Source: Thermoanaerobacter wiegelii Rt8.B1
GTDB taxonomy: Bacteria; Bacillota; Thermoanaerobacteria; Thermoanaerobacterales; Thermoanaerobacteraceae
NCBI RefSeq assembly: GCF_000147695.2
Contig: NC_015958.1
Location: 2,463,501-2,527,500 of the forward strand
Direction of reading: 5' to 3'
DNA: 64,000 nucleotides
Part shown: positions 16,511 to 53,940 of the stretch, one piece after another
Position numbering within the stretch: the stretch's first letter is position 1
How the letters are laid out: every line of letters begins with the position of its first letter
Translations under genes and position numbers: made by a program
The notes under the pieces: model-generated
Seen by the model: only the letters and a program-made list of their open reading frames with translations
Told to the model about the DNA's origin: nothing
The model's database searches: none

Positions 16511-18129
16511 ATGACAACAGTATATGTTTCCGGACATAAAAATCCAGATACCGATTCTATTTGCTCAGCTATTGCTTATGCCTATCTAAAGCGCATATCT
16601 GAAGGTATAAATGCTATACCTGTTAGATTAGGTCCTATAAACCGAGAGACAAAATTTGTATTAGACTATTTTGGAGTAGAAAAGCCTACTTTTATTGAAA
16701 ATGTATATACCCAAGTACAAGACATTAAATTTGATAAATCTCTTGTTTTTAAAGAAAACACCTCCATGTTTGAAGCATGGAACGCTATGATGGAAAAAAA
16801 CATTAGAACAATAGCAGTAGTAGATGAGGAGAACAAATTAATAGGAATTGCAACAGTAGGAGATTTGGCAAAGGCATATCTTTCCTCTTCTCATGAATTA
16901 TCTAAATATAAAATTCCTATTGACAATATATTAGCTACTTTGAAAGGAGAAGAAATTTTAAGATATGTAGATTATCTTGAAGGCGACATTTTAGTAGCTG
17001 CAATGTCCAAAGAAAATGTGTTAAAAAGAATAAAAAAGGAGATATCTTAATCGTTGGAGACAGAGATGATATACAGCAAGCTGCAATTCAACAAGGAATA
17101 AAAGCTCTCATAATTACTGGCAATAACGGAATTTCAGAAAAAATTTTTGAACTAGCTAAACAATACAAAGTAACAATTATAAAAGTTGAACCAGATACTT
17201 TTGACACTGTTAAATTATTAAACCAAAGTATACCATTATCATATGTAATAAAAAAAGAAGACCTAGTAACATTTAGAGTCAGCGATTATATTGATGATGT
17301 AAAAGAAGTAATGTTAAAATATAGATACCGCAACTTTCCAGTTGTCGATGAAGAAGGAAAAGTTGTAGGACTACTTGCAAGGCGACATATTTTAGACTAT
17401 GAAAGAAAAAATGTAATAATGGTAGACCACAATGAATTCTCTCAAGCAGTAGAAGGAATAGAACAAGCAAGAATATTAGAAATAATTGACCACCACAGGA
17501 TTGGGACGATAGAAACCGAGCAGCCAATACTATTTAGAAACCATCCAGTAGGCTCTACTGCTACAATTATAAATCGAATTTTTGAGGAAAAAGGGCTAAT
17601 CCCAGAATCGAAAATAGCGGGAATAATGTGCGCTGCTATTTTATCAGATACTCTTGTATTTAAATCCCCCACTTGCACACCAGAAGACGTAAGAGCAGCT
17701 AAGAAACTTGCAGAAATTGCTAACATAGACATAAATGAGTTTGGAACTGAAATGTTCAAAGCAGGTACCTCTTTAGAAGGGAAAACTGTTGAAGAAATAT
17801 TTTATACAGATTTTAAAGAATTTACAATAAATAATTATAAAATTGGCATAGGTCAGGTGAATACTCTCACAGATGCAGGAAAATTAAAACAAGACCTAAT
17901 AAATTTTATGGAAAAAGTAAAAAAAGATAAAGGTTATGATATTTTACTACTTATGCTTACAGACATAATAAACGAAGGATCTGAAATACTTTTTGTAGGA
18001 AATAATAAAGAATTGTTGGAAAGAGCCTTCAACGTACAAATAAAAAATAACAGTTTTTACCTCCCATATGTCATATCAAGAAAAAAACAAGTATTGCCAC
18101 CTATTATTAAAGCGATAAACTCCCAATAA
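16511..18129 (+). pseudogene. CBS/DRTGG-type manganese inorganic pyrophosphatase, frameshifted
   Basis: Two frames together make one family II pyrophosphatase of about 539 residues. The DHH part starts [13 protein letters not shown]; a CBS, a DRTGG-like and a second CBS region (YRNFPVVDEEGKVVG) follow, then DHH (LEIIDHHRIG) and the DHHA2 domain. The first frame stops at 17050. A -1 shift in the A run at 17032-17037 continues as [14 protein letters not shown]. The site reads A_AAA_AAG in frame, the classical -1 slippery heptamer. So it may be an error, a mutation or programmed frameshifting. Confidence 0.75.
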
Positions 18130-37497: not shown

Positions 37498-38103
37498 ATG
37501 AATCTTTTTGATGTAATGCTTAAAAATTATTTTGATGAAAAGATGCTTGAGAAGCTTTCAAGAGTAAAAATTCTTCTCATTGGCTGTGGTGGACTTGGTT
37601 CAAATGTTGCAGTAATGCTTATAAGAAGTGGCATTAAAAACCTCACAATAGTTGATTTTGATGAGGTAGACATCTTAAATCTCAACCGACAAAATTACTT
37701 TTTACACCAGGTAGGAGAAAAAAAGGTATTAGCCCTTAAAGATACTCTCTTTAAAATCAACCCCCACGCAAACATAGCAGCCAAAAATATAAAAATTGAT
37801 GAGTCATATTTAGATGAGTTAATCCCTCAACATGATATAGTTGTGGAAGCTGTTGACAATGAATTTACCAAAACGCTGATTTTTAAAAAAGCCCAAAAAC
37901 ATAATAAAAAAGTGGTTTTGGCTTCAGGTGTCGCAGGATTTGGTGATTGCGAAAATATTAAAATAAAACGGGGTAAAAACTTTTCAATTGTGGGGGATTT
38001 TGTTACATCGATTAATGAAAAGAAACCTTTGGCACCCAAAGTCATGGCAGTCGCCGCAATACAAGCAGATGAAGTATTAAGGATGATAAATGAGCTGGAG
38101 TAA
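37498..38103 (+). CDS. ThiF/MoeB-family E1-like adenylyltransferase
   Basis: A 201-residue enzyme: ILLIGCGGLGSNVAVMLIRSG (ATP-binding loop), VDFDEVDILNLNRQ and DIVVEAVDNEFTK. It is the short ThiF type without rhodanese or zinc domains. Family members adenylate the C-terminal glycine of ThiS, MoaD or TtuB. Placement after ttuB-ttuA suggests the TtuC-like role. The ATG at 37498 is chosen because the preceding ATG soon meets a stop. Confidence 0.75.
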   Translation: MNLFDVMLKNYFDEKMLEKLSRVKILLIGCGGLGSNVAVMLIRSGIKNLTIVDFDEVDILNLNRQNYFLHQVGEKKVLALKDTLFKINPHANIAAKNIKIDESYLDELIPQHDIVVEAVDNEFTKTLIFKKAQKHNKKVVLASGVAGFGDCENIKIKRGKNFSIVGDFVTSINEKKPLAPKVMAVAAIQADEVLRMINELE

Positions 38104-38700
38104 AAATGATAATATAATTATTTTTTTTCAAGTATTTTTTTCTTTCAAGATATTCCTCTTCGCTTATTTCCCCTCTTGCATATCTTTCTTTTAAAATTTC
38201 TATCGCATCCCTCTCTTTGTTTCTATTTTTTGTGCCTCGAAATAATGATATAATAAAGTATATTGCAGCTGTGAGCTTAAATAGCTCTTCTTTAGGTATA
38301 TCATATACCTTTGCAGTAAAATCACCTTTTTCAAGCTTTTTAGCAACTTCCGTAATATTAACTAACGGTCTTGTAATATAATTTGACACATAAATACTTA
38401 TAATCAATGCCTATCACCGTTGCTATAACATTATATCTGCTAATGTCATATAAAAACTTAAAATCCAAGTCACTCATCATCATCGGCTCATAATAAATTA
38501 TATCCACATATCCCACTGTTTTTTCATCTACAATGATGGGAAGAGTTTTTTCAGAAATATTTTTCTTATTCCATTTTCCCATCATATTCATCATATATGA
38601 CATTGAAGAAAAATCCCATATAATCTTGCCATCTTTATCTCTAAGTCTTAATCCATATCCTTCCATCATAGCTGCATGACCAATTAGAATAAAAAAAGAA
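38042..38700 (-). pseudogene. Sensor-kinase fragment fused to a SHOCT-domain fragment
   Basis: Two overlapping minus-strand frames. Residues around GYGLRLRDKDGKIIWDFSSM…DEKTVGYVDIIYYEP are a kinase sensor domain; VSNYITRPLVNITEVAKKLEKGDF is a HAMP linker. Instead of a kinase core, the frame continues into FKLTAAIYFIISLFRGTK and DAIEILKERYARGEISEEEYLERKKYL, a SHOCT domain from another gene. The N-terminus is missing and a frameshift lies near 38400. The 3' end runs into thiF. Confidence 0.7.
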
Positions 38701-39494: not shown

Positions 39495-40270
39495 ATGAGT
39501 GAACTTATTAATAATAGGGAATACAGAAGAAAACTTTTAAAAGAAGTTATAAAAGAACTTCATAGGGGTAAAAGCGTTGCGGAAGTTAAGGAAAAATTTA
39601 AAGATGTCATAAATGGAATAACTTCTACAGAATTGCCAGCAATAGAACAAGAACTAATAAACGAGGGACTGGACGTAAAAGAAGTACAGAGGCTATGTGA
39701 TGTCCATGCTGAAGTGTTTAGAGATTCATTAGAACAACTAAAAAAGTCCGAAACAATTCCGGGGCATCCAGTGCACACCTTTAAAGAAGAAAATAGAGCA
39801 ATAGAAAAGCACATTAATGAAAATATAAAACCTGCTCTTGAAAAGTTGAAAAACAGCGGAAGTTTTGAAGACGCTCAAAAGCTTTTAGAGCATATTAATC
39901 TTTTAATGGACATAGACAAGCATTATTCGAGAAAAGAAAACCTGCTTTTTCCGTACCTTGAAAAATACGGTATAACGGGACCTCCCTCTGTCATGTGAGA
40001 ATATTTGCAAGGACAAAATCCGTCATTGGCAGAAAAGTTCAATATTGTCACCCACCTACAAGTGTCCATATTGTTGAACAGCTGCTTCAGGACTTCAAGT
40101 CAGGCAAAAAAAGTCATGAAGACTTCTGGATAAAGTTGGGTGACAAATATGTATTTATAAGATATTTTGCTTTAAGGGACAAAAATGGTGAGTATATAGG
40201 TACTTTAGAGGTAACACAGGATATCGCTCCTATAAAAGCAATAGAAGGAGAAAAGAGGCTTATGTCTTAA
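39495..40270 (+). pseudogene. DUF438 / PAS-domain protein with internal deletion
   Basis: The first frame (39495-39998) is DUF438 plus the start of a hemerythrin-like part (IPGHPVHTFKEENRAIEKHI…HYSRKENLLFPYLEKYGITGPPSVM). The second (39995-40270) is the PAS-like end (IGRKVQYCHPPTSVHIVEQL…FIRYFALRDKNGEYIGTLEV). In complete family members these parts belong to one protein of roughly 400 residues or more. Here the middle is gone and the frames differ, so it is probably a deletion derivative. Confidence 0.65.
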
Positions 40271-40327: not shown

Positions 40328-40744
40328 TTACTTTGCACTCTTTAAAGCCTCTGTAGCTAATTCTTTAAAAGTTTTCGAAGTTTCTGTAGCCCCTGTTACT
40401 GTATCTACTTTAGCAGGATCTTGCTTTTCTATTAGTTGTTGCTCTAACTTTTCATCTGCTTCTTTTGGAGTAATATTAGTTTTTTCTTTCATCTTTTCGG
40501 CATATTGTTGATCATTTCTCTTAAATTGCCCATCTTTGTTAACTTCATTATAGGTTACAGATGCTATTTTGCCATCCTTTACAGTTATTTCTATTTGTCC
40601 CTTCCAGCCATGACTGTCAAAATTAGGCTGTTCTGCTTTGTAAGTACCATCTTTGTAACCACCGCTTGCTGTTTTTGAAGAACAGCCACTCAGTACAAAC
40701 AAAGCAAACACCCCTACCAACATAAGAACCAAAATCCTTTTCAT
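40328..40744 (-). CDS. pplA: FMN-binding lipoprotein (PplA-like)
   Basis: A 138-residue lipoprotein: signal peptide with lipobox FVLSGCSS (Cys 21) and one FMN-binding domain, with VDTVTGATETS near residue 116, where the second Thr of TGAT-type motifs receives covalent FMN from FmnB. In Listeria PplA passes electrons from the membrane to outside acceptors and has two such domains; here there is one. It is the last gene of the electron-transfer locus. Confidence 0.8.
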   Translation of the reverse strand: MKRILVLMLVGVFALFVLSGCSSKTASGGYKDGTYKAEQPNFDSHGWKGQIEITVKDGKIASVTYNEVNKDGQFKRNDQQYAEKMKEKTNITPKEADEKLEQQLIEKQDPAKVDTVTGATETSKTFKELATEALKSAK

Positions 40745-40867
40745 ACAATTACACCTCTCCTCAATATAAATTTTTATTTAAGAATATTATACCATTACGT
40801 TAAAATAATATCAAGATATATAAATTAAAAACGTTTCCTTTACAAAAAACTCCATCAATTTGTCTCA

Positions 40868-41803
40868 CTAAAATTTTGTTTTGGACAGCAATGAAGCTAA
40901 AATCATCATAATTCCTGTAATTTGATATATCTTTACAGTATTAGCATTCGCTTTTACTAACTGTGGTATATTGTCATAATATTTACGAGCAATATTTACA
41001 GATTGTACTGCTAATGGAATTGTTATAAAAGATAATAACCATAGTAAGTTTTTGGTAACAACAGCTATTACAATGAAAGAGAGATATGCTGCTCCATAAA
41101 GGGCTGCATATACCTTTACTCCTTTTTCTTTGCCTATCCTTACTAATAAATTGTATTTATGGCCTTTAAGGTCAGCCTCATAATCGGGATATTGATTTAT
41201 CCAAAGAACATTGGTTATTAAAAAGCCTATAGGCAAGGAAATCAGTAAAACATCTATACTTACGCGATGTGTCATCACCAAATACATCCCCATCACTATT
41301 AAAGGTCCAAATGTCACTCCCACAGCTATTTCTCCAAGTCCATTATAACTAAATTTAAAAGGAGGTAAACTATAAAAAATTGACATCAAAACTCCTAATA
41401 ATCCTACAATTAACACCAAAGGTTCCCTAAAGATTACAATAACCAATCCTATGATACAAGCGGCAAGCATTGTTATAATTGCAATAAGTATTGTCTCTTC
41501 AACTGTGAGTTTACCTTCGACTATGGTCTTTTTTCCACCGCTAAAAGGAGTCCTTTTATCTGGAGTTACAAAAGTGTCTACTCCAGACTTATAATCAATA
41601 AATTCATTAACTGCATTTTTGCCAATTTCAATAAAATAAATACCTATCAAAGATATAACAAACCATAAAAAGTTAAATTCTCCAGTTTTGCCATATGCAT
41701 AGGCAGCTGCAACAAACATAGGTACAGTAGATGCTACCCATATCTTAGGATCTGCCAATTGCCAAAATCCCTTCCAAGCCCTCAAAAATTCTGATTTGTT
41801 CAT
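40868..41803 (-). CDS. dmkA: UbiA-family prenyltransferase (DmkA-like)
   Basis: A 311-residue membrane protein from ATG 41803 (GGAGGGGAG upstream). It has 8-9 helices and the two Asp-rich motifs NEFIDYKSGVD (about residue 60) and YPDYEADLKGHK (about 190) that bind prenyl diphosphate with magnesium. It would attach the polyprenyl chain to a naphthoquinone precursor, making the quinone used by Ndh2. It is embedded in the electron-transfer locus and therefore named DmkA rather than menA. Confidence 0.8.
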   Translation of the reverse strand: MNKSEFLRAWKGFWQLADPKIWVASTVPMFVAAAYAYGKTGEFNFLWFVISLIGIYFIEIGKNAVNEFIDYKSGVDTFVTPDKRTPFSGGKKTIVEGKLTVEETILIAIITMLAACIIGLVIVIFREPLVLIVGLLGVLMSIFYSLPPFKFSYNGLGEIAVGVTFGPLIVMGMYLVMTHRVSIDVLLISLPIGFLITNVLWINQYPDYEADLKGHKYNLLVRIGKEKGVKVYAALYGAAYLSFIVIAVVTKNLLWLLSFITIPLAVQSVNIARKYYDNIPQLVKANANTVKIYQITGIMMILASLLSKTKF

Positions 41804-41829
41804 AAAATTTCTCCCCTCCAAAGCCAAAA

Positions 41830-42867
41830 TTATCTAGTCATTAAACTATACTCAGGGTCAGTAATTTTGAAATTGCCTTTTAATCCGGAAGTTATATATA
41901 CTTTTTTGTCATCTGTGACAAAAATAGCTTGTACTCCTGGTAAACTTTCTGCAAGTTTTAAACCTTCTTCTAATCCCATAACAAAAATTTTTGAAAGCGC
42001 ATCGCCATCAATAGAAGTGTCTGTTATTATTGTCACACTGTAGAGATGGTTATCTGCAGGATACCCTGTAAAAGGATTCAATATATGATGATATAATTTT
42101 CCATCTTTTTCAAAGTATCTTTCATAAACTCCAGAAGTAACAACTGCTTTATTTGAAACTTCTACTATACCTAAATATTCGCCTCTCGGTTTAAAAGGAG
42201 TTTGAATACCTATACGCCAGTTGCGACCATCAGGTTTTGTTCCGATTGTAAGAACATCACCTCCTAAATTTATTATGGCATGTTTTACACCTTCTTTTTT
42301 TAAAACTTGTGCAACTTTATCTGCCGCATATCCTTTGGCAATACCTCCTAAATCTATGCTCATACCTTTGTTTTTTAACATAATAGTCATATTTTTTTCA
42401 TCCAGTATTATATTTTTATAACTTACAAGAGGAAGTTTAGCTTTTATTTCTTCAGGTGAAGGTACTCTGGCTTTATCAGTGCCTATATTCCAAAGTTTTA
42501 CTATAGGTCCTACTGTAATATCAAAATACCCCTTTTCAACATCAGAAAAATGTACCGCTTTTTTTATCACATAAAAGGTGTCAGATGAAACCTTAACAGG
42601 TCTAACACCTGCATTCTCATTAATTTGATTCACTTCACTGCCTTTGATGGCAACACTCATCTTGTCCTCTACATCTCTTATAGCTTTAAATCCATCATCT
42701 AATACTTTTTTCGGAGCTTTATCGTATATGGTTATTGTGCAATAAGTATCTAAAGCAAATTGGGTATCAGATATAGGCTGTGAATTTTTATTTGAACATC
42801 CAGATAGTATAATGGCGGCATTAAATATTAGAAAAAAAATTACAAAAGAAGTTATGGATTTTTTCAT
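41830..42867 (-). CDS. fmnB: ApbE-family flavin transferase lipoprotein (FmnB-like)
   Basis: A 345-residue lipoprotein (lipobox ILSGCSN, Cys 23) with the ApbE fold: TQFALDTYCTITIY, FDITVGPIVKLW, IDLGGIAKGYAADKV, INLGGDVLTIG, HHILNPFTGYPAD and DALSKIFVMG. It transfers FMN from FAD onto Thr of FMN-binding proteins such as PplA outside the membrane. It lies between dmkB and dmkA with 2-33 base gaps. Confidence 0.85.
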   Translation of the reverse strand: MKKSITSFVIFFLIFNAAIILSGCSNKNSQPISDTQFALDTYCTITIYDKAPKKVLDDGFKAIRDVEDKMSVAIKGSEVNQINENAGVRPVKVSSDTFYVIKKAVHFSDVEKGYFDITVGPIVKLWNIGTDKARVPSPEEIKAKLPLVSYKNIILDEKNMTIMLKNKGMSIDLGGIAKGYAADKVAQVLKKEGVKHAIINLGGDVLTIGTKPDGRNWRIGIQTPFKPRGEYLGIVEVSNKAVVTSGVYERYFEKDGKLYHHILNPFTGYPADNHLYSVTIITDTSIDGDALSKIFVMGLEEGLKLAESLPGVQAIFVTDDKKVYITSGLKGNFKITDPEYSLMTR

Positions 42868-42900
42868 ATAATCTCCTCCAAAAATAGCTTTACATATTTT

Positions 42901-43869
42901 TTAATAATTCCTATATAAAAGCTTACTCGTAACTTCAATTAAAATTTGTTTAGGTGGAGAGTCTTTCAACATAGATATTTTATCAAAGGCTTTTTTAGTA
43001 TATTTTTCTGCCAGCATTTTTGACCGGTCTACACCACCATTTTCCTGAACGAATTCAACTATGCGTTTTATGTCTTCCTCACAATAACTCTCTTTTTTAA
43101 GTAATGCTATCATTTTTTCGTCTTTATTCTTTTCTAAAGAATATATTAAAGGCAGTGTAAAAACTCCTTGTCTTATATCATTGCACAAAGGTTTGCCAAC
43201 CACATTTTCTTCTCCAGTATAGTCCAGAACATCGTCTATAATTTGAAAAGCCATGCCAATATTGTATCCTATACTTCCCAATATTTTAGCCAACTTTTCT
43301 CCACAGTTGCTTTCATAAGCTCCCACGTAAAAACTTAAGGCAAAAAGGGCAGCAGTTTTTGCAGCTATCCGCTTCAAATAATCATTTATTGTGATATCTA
43401 TATTGTATCGGCTTTCAAATTGCCCAATTTCACCTTTGCATATTCTAGACACCACTTTTGACACTTTCTTAAGATTTTCAATAGTAATGTTATCGGATAA
43501 AAGCAAAAAGCATTCAGAAAAAAGAAAATCCCCTATAAATACCGCATAATTTTTCCCATATTCTGCTTGGATAGTAGGTTTACTGCGTCTTATTAAAGCA
43601 TTGTCAATTATATCATCGTGTACTAAAGTTGCCATGTGGAGCATCTCAACAGCAGCAGCTAAAGGTAATATCCTTCTTCTATCGTATTCTCCAAATTTCC
43701 CAGACAAGATTACAAAAGCAGGCCTAAGCATCTTTCCGCTGTTACGAATCATATCTAACAATATATTTCTAATTGACCTATTGGAGTTTTTTACACGTTT
43801 TTCCATTATTTTTATAACTTCATCAAGCTCATTTTTTATTTCTAAATTATTATTCCAAAACTTATCCAT
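42901..43869 (-). CDS. dmkB: Polyprenyl diphosphate synthase (DmkB-like)
   Basis: A 322-residue trans-prenyltransferase with the first Asp-rich motif LVHDDIIDNALIRR (about residue 82) and second AFQIIDDVLDYTG (about 207). It makes the long isoprenoid chain for the quinone. In this locus it pairs with dmkA to supply the dedicated demethylmenaquinone-like carrier. It lies 14 bases after eetB. Confidence 0.85.
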   Translation of the reverse strand: MDKFWNNNLEIKNELDEVIKIMEKRVKNSNRSIRNILLDMIRNSGKMLRPAFVILSGKFGEYDRRRILPLAAAVEMLHMATLVHDDIIDNALIRRSKPTIQAEYGKNYAVFIGDFLFSECFLLLSDNITIENLKKVSKVVSRICKGEIGQFESRYNIDITINDYLKRIAAKTAALFALSFYVGAYESNCGEKLAKILGSIGYNIGMAFQIIDDVLDYTGEENVVGKPLCNDIRQGVFTLPLIYSLEKNKDEKMIALLKKESYCEEDIKRIVEFVQENGGVDRSKMLAEKYTKKAFDKISMLKDSPPKQILIEVTSKLLYRNY

Positions 43870-43882
43870 CTAACCACCTTAA

Positions 43883-44437
43883 TCAATGTAAATTTAGATT
43901 TTTTAATCTCTTCCAATGTTTTAGAATAAATTTTGAAGACAATCCCACAAAAATGCCAGTCCCAACTCCAGCTATCATTAATACAGGTATATAAACCATT
44001 ATATTGATATTTTGCACTATAAGAGAAGCTACCAGCATCTGACCAATGTTGTGAAATACAGCACCTATAACACTGACCCCAACTTCAGTTATATTTTCTT
44101 TGCCTACTTTTTTTGCGAAAAACATGGCAAAAAGGCTTAATAAACCTCCGCCTATGCTATAAAAAAAGGAAGATGGTGAGGAAGCAAAAAATGTTGCTAG
44201 CAATATCCTTACAACAAGCACAATAAATGTATCAAAAAAGCCAAACAAATACAAAGATACGACTGTGATTATGTTAGCAAGTCCTAACTTAGCACCGGGA
44301 GCAATAAAAGGGACAGGTAACATTCCTTCTATAATGTATAAGACTAAAGAATTAGCAACTAATATAGCCAGAAAAACCATTCTCTGAGTCTTTGACATAG
44401 TTGTATGCTCAATAGACGACTTGGTCAACTTTGTCAT
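43883..44437 (-). CDS. eetB: Gx-transporter-like membrane protein (EetB-like)
   Basis: A 184-residue protein from ATG 44437 (GGGGTG upstream; an in-frame GTG lies at 44446). It has five or six hydrophobic segments and motifs KTQRMVFLAILVANSLVLYI and AKLGLANIITVVSLYLFG typical of the heptaprenyl-diphosphate-synthase-component-I/Gx family. EetB is needed for flavin-based extracellular electron transfer in Listeria but its biochemical task is unclear. It overlaps the eetA end. Confidence 0.75.
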   Translation of the reverse strand: MTKLTKSSIEHTTMSKTQRMVFLAILVANSLVLYIIEGMLPVPFIAPGAKLGLANIITVVSLYLFGFFDTFIVLVVRILLATFFASSPSSFFYSIGGGLLSLFAMFFAKKVGKENITEVGVSVIGAVFHNIGQMLVASLIVQNINIMVYIPVLMIAGVGTGIFVGLSSKFILKHWKRLKNLNLH

Positions 44438-44789
44438 TTTTAACACCCCGTATTTCTACAACTATCCTAAACGGCAAACATATTATACTTTGCCCCGGTT
44501 TATCAATAAATCCTTCTTTTATACAAATTTTATCTGGGCACTCAGCGTAAATAACCTTTACCCCACCATCTTCAACCAGCAATACATCTCTCCCATATTT
44601 TGTAACTATAGGTATCTCTTCTCGATAATTAACATCATCTAAGGACACCTCTTTATATATCTTACCGTCTACCATTATTGCCGCATATTTGTGGGGATAA
44701 TGTTGGGTTGTTGATACTTTGTAAAATATCAACAACCCGATAGACAAAATCGCCACAAAAAGTACTATGAGGATATCACCTTTTTTCAC
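44409..44789 (-). CDS. eetA: NusG-domain-II-like membrane-anchored protein (EetA-like)
   Basis: A 126-residue protein with one N-terminal helix (ILIVLFVAILSIGLLIFY) and an outside beta domain containing CPDKICIKEGFIDKPGQSIICLP, the cysteine pattern of NusG-II proteins. In Listeria EetA is required for assembly or function of the electron route. It lies 27 bases after ndh2 and overlaps eetB. Confidence 0.75.
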   Translation of the reverse strand: MKKGDILIVLFVAILSIGLLIFYKVSTTQHYPHKYAAIMVDGKIYKEVSLDDVNYREEIPIVTKYGRDVLLVEDGGVKVIYAECPDKICIKEGFIDKPGQSIICLPFRIVVEIRGVKNDKVDQVVY

Positions 44790-44815
44790 TATAAATAACC
44801 CTCTTTCATATTACA

Positions 44816-46605
44816 TCAGCTAACATAAAGATACGTTCTTCTGGCAAAAGAAGTCTTTTTCCACCAATTTTTTATCCACGGTATCACATAATAATCCAGT
44901 CCAAAAGCTCTCCCCGCTCCTCCCATAAGAGCTATAGCTGAAAAAATATACCACAATATAGACTTATCTGCCATCGCAGATAATATGAAGTTCAGTGCCA
45001 AGAATATAGAACCAGCTGATGCTAAGGCGGTAAACAAACCTGCTATTAAAGCCAGACCTATCGCTACTTCTGCAAGCACTACCATTGCTTGGAATAAGAA
45101 GGCATGTGGTACTACAAAAGTATCCATAAACCATTTGTAGAAAGCTGGAGGCTCTTTTAACAATGGCTGCAAGGCCTGCGCTGCAGTTGCAGCTTCGCCA
45201 GCTTTAGCTGTAGCACCGGATACATCAGAGGTAGTTATAATAAATATTTTTGAAGGGTCAAGCCATCCTTGCTGTATCTTATTTATGCCTTCTATAAGCC
45301 ACAATGCACCCACATATATTCTTAAAAGAACAAGCCAAAAGATAGGAATATGCGCGGCAATATGTCCTCCCAATATTGAGCGATTGCTTTTAACTTCAAA
45401 GAACTCATGGTAAATGTATGATAACACGGTATCAACGCCTGCTACTCCAAAAAGATAATGCATATTTACAAGGTGCTTCATAGCCATTGCTAAAAAGCCT
45501 GTCAAAGACACACCCATAAGTTCTGCTACTGCATATCTACTTCCTATAGAAACCATAAAACCATGGTATCTAGGTTTAAAAGGCTTTTTCTCTTCTCCTT
45601 TTATATCAGCCACTATATTGTATACTGCAGTTTCAGCTGACTGCAGTGCTGTCTCTACAACTTGAGGGATAGGTTTTCCATCTAACTCATAGTATGCTAA
45701 ATCGCCTATTACATAAATATTTTCTTTGCCTACTGCTTGCATGTATTCATTTGTCTGGACTCTACATCTTCTACCTAACTCTAAGCCAAAATTCTCAACG
45801 CATTTGTTACCTTGAACTCCACAGGTCCATATAAGCGTTTTTGTCTCAATCTTTCTTCCATCTTTTAAAACTATATAATCCTTTGCTACTTCCACTATAG
45901 GAGCATTAGTCAAAACTTCTACTCCTTTTCTGTTCAAAAACTTTTGAGCTTTGGCAGCTAATCTTGCATTTAAGTTAGGAAGTATGGTATTCAGCGCTTC
46001 TACCACCATAATTTTAACATCATTGCGATCTAAATGATATTTATCACACAAACTTTTTGTCCATTCCATTAATTCGCCTGCAGTTTCAATTCCTGTGAAA
46101 CCCGCGCCAGCTACCACAAAGGTAAGCATTTTTCTTTTTTCCCAGGGTCATTTTCAGCACTTGCTTTTCTAAACATTTCCTCAATATGTTCTTTTGTTTT
46201 AATAGCAGCTTCTAATGTTCCTACTGTAGACCCGTATTCAAATACACCAGGTATGCCAAAATCGCAAGGCTCACTTCCAATTCCTAAAATCAAATAATCA
46301 TAATTATACTCTCCGTCTTTTCCAATTACACTTTGCCTTTCATAATCAATTTTTTCCACTTCATCTGTTATGACTTTTACTTTTTTGTTTGCGAAAATTT
46401 TGTGTAAGTACACACGAACGCTATCAGGTTCTATTCTGGAACCAGCCACTTCATGTAAATCTGTTAACAATGTATGATAGGGTTTTTTGTCAATAAGAGT
46501 TATTTCTACAGTGCTGTCATTTTTAAATTTTTTGTTTAATAGTTTGGCGGCGTGTACGCCCCCATACCCGGCCCCAATGACAACAATTCTTTTATGACTA
46601 CTCAT
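44816..46605 (-). pseudogene. ndh2: Type II NADH dehydrogenase Ndh2 with membrane tail, frameshifted
   Basis: Two frames form one protein of about 596 residues from ATG 46605. IVVIGAGYGGVHAAKLL binds FAD; after a missing base in the T run at 46129-46133 (A on the coding strand), MLTFVVAGAGFTGIETAGEL binds NADH. VIGDLAYYE is the second FAD motif. The C-terminal 200 residues form a DoxX-like four-helix membrane domain, as in the extracellular electron-transfer Ndh2. It would pass electrons from NADH to the dedicated quinone. The shift could be real or an assembly error. Confidence 0.8.
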
Positions 46606-46614
46606 AAAAAACAC

Positions 46615-46856
46615 CTCTTATTTGATATAATTATAACAGTATTCCTTACATAAATTTTACTATATAAATTACGCTTTGTCTATAGTTTAACAACGAAAAC
46701 CTTATCTTATATTTTTTAAAAAAATTCATGGGGATATACCTTATCAAAAAAGCATACCCCCATACCGTATTTCCGCGATTTCGTTAAGTTTCCATAAGCA
46801 GAGCCATCGCTTTAAAAATGCCTAAATTTAAACAAACAACGAACCGTTTATTGCTG
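46615..46856. other. Intergenic region between ferritin and ndh2
   Basis: No open frame with a ribosome site. The region has AT-rich upstream DNA for the ndh2 operon and, near 46735-46776, GGGGATATACC and CATACCCCCATACC, which could pair as a weak hairpin after ferritin. No clear terminator is seen. Confidence 0.3.
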
Positions 46857-53597: not shown

Positions 53598-53690
53598 TAA
53601 AAAAGCTGACAACCCCTACGTTTTTACCGTAGAAGCCATCAGCTGTTTATCAGCAGTTCGGATTTTCCAAAAGGGGGCTTCATCCCTTTT
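53598..53690 (-). ncRNA. Fluoride (crcB-motif) riboswitch with terminator
   Basis: The minus-strand leader reads GGGATGAAGCCCCC, then CCGAACTGCTG, ATAAA, CAGCTGATGGCTTCTACGG. It matches the fluoride riboswitch core known from Thermotoga (GATGAGGCC…AACTGCC…GGCTGATGGCCTCTAC). P1 pairs AAAAGGG with CCCTTTT, and a GCTG/CAGC stem follows. A hairpin with CTACG/CGTAG and a TTTTTT run lies right after, giving an on-switch: fluoride binding should prevent termination. It sits 46 bases before the MutS-like gene start. Confidence 0.88.
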
Positions 53691-53940
53691 TGAATATTAT
53701 ATCACTTTTTTATGAAGCCTGCAAGAATATGTGAAAATTTACTTCAAAGCATAATGTTTATGTTTATTTGTTTAAAATAAAAAGATTTTTGTATTGTTTT
53801 ATATCCAAATTTTGTAATACTGCTTATTATTCTATAAGTAAACTTAACAATATAAAATACTTGATATCATTATTTTGTAGTATAATGATAATATGAGAAA
53901 AATAAATATTCATTCATTTTATGTTTTGGGAGGGATCTTA
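53691..53940. other. Divergent promoter region
   Basis: AT-rich DNA between the fluoride riboswitch (minus) and the ClC gene (plus). It should contain both promoters; a TATAAT-type -10 lies near 53881-53886 for the ClC gene. No further gene is seen. Confidence 0.35.

Follow-up and report, generated by a model that had tools for sequence, protein, structure and literature searches.

The genome of Thermoanaerobacter wiegelii Rt8.B1 (a single contig of 2,785,056 bases) carries what its sequence identifies as a genuine FLEET-type locus for flavin-based electron export, in which only one of the eight genes known from Listeria is missing. The seven genes lie on the minus strand at 46605-40328 of the window, i.e., the whole stretch of 64,000 nucleotides that was analysed, and their order ndh2-eetA-eetB-dmkB-fmnB-dmkA-pplA and their place, as given in the original prediction, were borne out by open reading frames (ORFs), Pfam and NCBIfam. 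The same prediction had seen every component of the Listeria set, which goes too far: fmnA is absent from the locus and ndh2 is split in the assembly. The locus is thus FLEET-type, yet not a complete Listeria-type one given the missing FmnA. As eetB clusters have already been surveyed across 31,910 genomes (PMC9973259), the kind of system is already known, and the present locus is a fresh example of it; our literature search found no description of a FLEET locus in Thermoanaerobacter. The reading that we consider probable, in which all activities are inferred, is that of a FLEET-type locus that would work with imported DHNA and with housekeeping EcfT/EcfA for FmnA, the split of ndh2 being an assembly error.

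Gene content of the locus

The features of the locus are the following (window coordinates):

46727..46764, minus strand: terminator-like hairpin in the gap that separates ndh2 from the ferritin gene upstream of it (consensus scan only)
46682-46654, minus strand: promoter-like site after the hairpin and before ndh2 (consensus scan only)
44816..46605, minus strand: ndh2, type II NADH dehydrogenase with a C-terminal DoxD-like membrane region (ORFs 46614-46111 and 46129-44816)
46135-46140, plus strand: A6 tract, frameshift site in ndh2 (gene on the minus strand); A7 in relative G006 by alignment
44409..44789, minus strand: eetA, small membrane protein with a NusG_II domain (PF07009, 1.2e-30)
43883..44446, minus strand: eetB, ECF-S-like FAD-exporter subunit (PF07456, 5.1e-47)
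42901..43869, minus strand: dmkB, long-chain polyprenyl diphosphate synthase, HepT-like (PF00348, 6.3e-67)
41830..42867, minus strand: fmnB, lipoprotein FAD:protein FMN transferase, ApbE (PF02424, 3.6e-97)
40868..41803, minus strand: dmkA, MenA-type prenyltransferase of the UbiA superfamily (PF01040, 1.6e-32)
40786..40814, minus strand: promoter-like site upstream of pplA, TTGATA-17-TATAAT with extended -10 (consensus scan only)
40328..40744, minus strand: pplA, lipoprotein with one FMN_bind domain (PF04205, 2.2e-9) and one DTVTGAT flavinylation motif

The assignment to FLEET is carried by FmnB, which among PDB entries matches the Listeria flavin transferase best (7esa, 1e-95; next match 2.5e-56) and is 47% identical to Listeria FmnB over 319 columns, and by PplA, which matches the NCBIfam PplA model (NF041941, 1.6e-30, under the cut-off of this two-domain model). 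The lipobox of PplA was read from the sequence, and the single FMN domain that had been predicted for this protein is indeed the only one it has. The genes fmnB, dmkA and pplA are the sole ApbE, UbiA and FMN_bind matches in the whole genome; with one ApbE and one FMN_bind protein, FmnB and PplA constitute a dedicated enzyme-substrate pair. DmkA lies barely above the cut-off of the menA model TIGR00751 (103.6 versus 102.15 bits), while DmkB matches TIGR02748 at 1.5e-79, under the model's cut-off, and has a weaker second homolog elsewhere in the genome. The genes eetA and eetB are adjacent (PF07009, PF07456), and the function of eetB is assigned from Listeria EetB (PMC9973259). Since the same gene order recurs in the main copies of relatives at 73-100% identity per gene, the locus is real and not a product of chance. 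The predicted promoter at 40786..40814 possibly allows a separate transcription of pplA.

In Listeria monocytogenes, the FLEET locus corresponds to lmo2634-lmo2641 (Light et al. 2018, as cited in PMC8837199 and PMC9973259), and homologs of Ndh2, DmkA, DmkB, EetA, EetB, FmnB and PplA are likewise found in one cluster. The present system differs in the lack of fmnA in the cluster, of recognised DHNA synthesis and of an unbroken ndh2 in this assembly, as well as in PplA, which has two FMN domains and flavinylation sites in Listeria and one here. Single-domain forms of PplA occur in Caldicoprobacter too. The loci of Clostridium drakei, Lutispora and Caldicoprobacter also have ndh2, eetA, eetB, dmkB and fmnB homologs close together, but no dmkA was matched there; the Caldicoprobacter dmkA copy lies elsewhere, in one genome beside an acetolactate synthase-like gene.

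Several other features of the window were recorded. A fluoride riboswitch (RF01734, 44.6 bits) lies at 53623-53696 (minus strand). Relative to the same-species genome G001, a DUF438-hemerythrin gene (39495-40270, plus strand) misses about 439 bases, G001's own copy having a one-base difference near window position 40106, and a HAMP-domain sensor gene (38042-38669, minus strand) is split by two differences, one of 11 bases and one of a single base.

The split ndh2 and the state of the locus in the genus

The predicted NADH dehydrogenase with a membrane tail is present as far as its domains are concerned (Pyr_redox_2, split at profile positions 130/145, and DoxD at the C-end; Pfam), but its reading frame is divided into two overlapping ORFs, since the A6 tract at 46135-46140 is one A short. 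By contrast with these, ndh2 forms a single frame of 600-609 aa in G001, G006 and G007, with the full Pfam domain set in the 600-aa homolog of G001, and in G001, G006 and the first of the two G007 copies none of the seven genes is broken. The segment around the frameshift is nearer to G006 than to G001, and may therefore have been exchanged by recombination.

As a control for homopolymers, 278 kb elsewhere in the genome (within contig positions 1-400000) were aligned with G001, and single-base differences standing alone in A/T runs of at least 6 were counted: this assembly was the shorter one 21 times, G001 twice. The gene for release factor 1, prfA, is among those split by such a shortfall in this assembly. 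This gene is generally essential. In the window itself, ppaC (16511-18126, plus strand), identified by its CBS-DRTGG-DHH-DHHA2 domains as a family II inorganic pyrophosphatase, is split at an A-run that is one A short compared with G001. Given the shortfall of 21 versus 2, prfA included, the split of ndh2 is most likely a homopolymer under-call, as judged from the bias elsewhere in the assembly, and the organism therefore probably has an intact Ndh2 enzyme. Pairwise dN/dS values, below 0.5 throughout and mostly below 0.2, speak for the main reading; the comparison with G001 was discarded as a test for decay, being uninformative at so small a divergence.

Within the genus the distribution of the locus is uneven: ndh2 has only weak, distant matches in four of the ten genomes. 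The draft genome G008 has frameshifts in ndh2 and fmnB, and a second copy of the locus in G007 has broken dmkA, dmkB and eetA. In G003, the alignment reveals a 5-bp deletion in ndh2, dmkB is frameshifted, and dmkA was not found in the gap between fmnB and pplA (L113 11520-12920), which looks as if it holds transposase-like or insertion-element-like sequence; these changes in ndh2 and dmkA differ from one-base shortfalls. Yet fmnB, eetB and pplA remain open in G003, which encodes one ApbE and a six-gene Rnf-like operon (L115 1492-6427) followed by an eetA paralog. Its RnfG-like protein matches FMN_bind (Pfam, which was run on this protein and on the EetA-like one), and it is plausible that the flavin transferase has been kept for Rnf in this one genome.

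These observations leave room for other readings of ndh2 and of the locus. The frameshift could be real and recent, so that the electron entry point is lost and the locus has begun to degrade, as happened elsewhere in the genus. The single missing base relative to intact relatives, the truly degraded locus of G003, the decayed second copy in G007, the absence of ndh2 from four genomes, and the neighbouring DUF438 and HAMP-sensor genes, which carry deletions rather than homopolymer errors, would all agree with such a loss. However, the same one-base A/T shortfall is found assembly-wide and hits prfA, which is expected to be essential, no break is seen in the remaining six genes, and the divergence from G001 is too small for a test of relaxed selection; real decay, set aside as the main reading after the assembly-wide control, hence appears rather unlikely. 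Nor do we see much in favor of programmed frameshifting or of phase switching by slippage in the A-rich tract: two of the six aligned genus copies are frameshifted within the same short A-rich stretch, but by different lengths (-1 versus -5 bases) that would need opposite corrections, intact relatives read the gene in one frame, inspection of the window found no canonical in-frame slippery heptamer, the linker DNA is less A-rich in more distant relatives, and the window case is explained by assembly bias. We judged both mechanisms weak and regard them as very improbable. Nevertheless, the break that G003 carries in this tract is real, which makes the tract a mutation hotspot where true loss is possible.

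It is also conceivable that eetB and fmnB mainly serve another flavinylated system, e.g., Rnf, with the export via Ndh2 and PplA secondary or lost. G003 invites this idea, as its ndh2, dmkB and dmkA are broken while fmnB, eetB and pplA stay open beside a single ApbE and an Rnf-like operon with an FMN_bind match in its RnfG-like protein. In the window's genome, however, PplA is the only FMN_bind protein, so that a role in Rnf fits G003 but hardly the window, and we hold it to be improbable here. For the window, the reading of an assembly error in an otherwise intact FLEET-type locus is thus retained. Accordingly, a one-base frameshift in an A/T tract is not to be taken as the sign of a pseudogene in this genome, whose frameshifted genes are suspect.

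Supply of the quinone ring and export of flavin

Dedicated quinone synthesis, another part of the original prediction, holds for prenylation (DmkA, DmkB) and fails for the synthesis of DHNA, for which no recognised genes were found. Our search for the quinone ring comprised MenD, MenB and MqnC, and none of the three exceeded its cut-off in any of the ten genus genomes, the window's included, whereas the positive-control genomes passed; weak matches lay far under cut-off and were taken as relatives with other functions. DHNA is thus without a recognised source, and DmkA and DmkB, by their sequence, can add a tail to a ring of which the same holds. By analogy with Lactiplantibacillus plantarum, a quinone auxotroph that performs extracellular electron transfer with exogenous DHNA (PMC10746273, PMC9888254), DHNA is likely scavenged. 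Both organisms are fermenters with FLEET genes and without quinone synthesis; the host of the window differs as a thermophilic clostridium, whose dependence on exogenous DHNA we infer.

The same pattern extends to nine further FLEET-bearing genomes found via related ndh2 genes, in which MenD and MqnC were not found over cut-off (including those of Clostridium drakei, Lutispora and Caldicoprobacter) and which carry UbiA-family genes, those of Caldicoprobacter being 60-62% identical to the window's DmkA. The MenD-like gene beside a Caldicoprobacter dmkA was rejected as a quinone gene, as it is acetolactate synthase-like and under the MenD cut-off. Since prenylating enzymes have been kept although MenD and MqnC are absent in all genomes tested, FLEET-bearing Clostridia might make a naphthoquinone-like ring by a route not yet described, or might prenylate another aromatic acceptor, an idea to which we give little credence.

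As to flavin, fmnA (ECF-T) is not among the locus genes and the window has no CbiQ match. Two CbiQ matches lie elsewhere in the genome, and one EcfT adjoins two ATPase genes; a 1900-aa open frame over one of the matches was dismissed as masked N sequence. Listeria needs EetB together with FmnA (ECF-T) to export FAD for flavinylation, and ECF subunits are partly interchangeable (PMC9973259). A housekeeping EcfT may thus substitute for FmnA.

Predicted electron export

From the examples of Listeria and L. plantarum, electron export by the window locus is predicted to proceed as follows. Ndh2 would oxidise NADH and pass electrons to a membrane naphthoquinone or flavin; DmkB would build the isoprenoid tail and DmkA join it to DHNA, whose import would be required as the genome has no recognised ring synthesis. 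EetB, probably with housekeeping EcfT/EcfA in FmnA's stead, would supply FAD outside the membrane. FmnB would attach FMN to PplA, from which the electrons would reach an acceptor such as ferric iron or flavins, in what may be a redox overflow for a fermenter. Against a functional system stands that ndh2 is broken as deposited, though Ndh2 is the only FLEET gene needed in every route of L. plantarum (PplA, EetA and quinone are needed depending on the acceptor; PMC9888254), and that fmnA is absent and four of the ten genus genomes are without ndh2.

The lack of ring synthesis predicts an electron export that would depend on quinone from neighbours or from the medium. Fe(III) reduction occurs among members of the genus; for T. 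wiegelii Rt8.B1, metal reduction is entered as "not reported" (PMC4595116). As Thermoanaerobacter species are cited as lacking the pathways based on multihaem cytochromes that other metal reducers have (PMC6497744), the flavin route represents a candidate mechanism of iron reduction for those Thermoanaerobacter that bear the locus.
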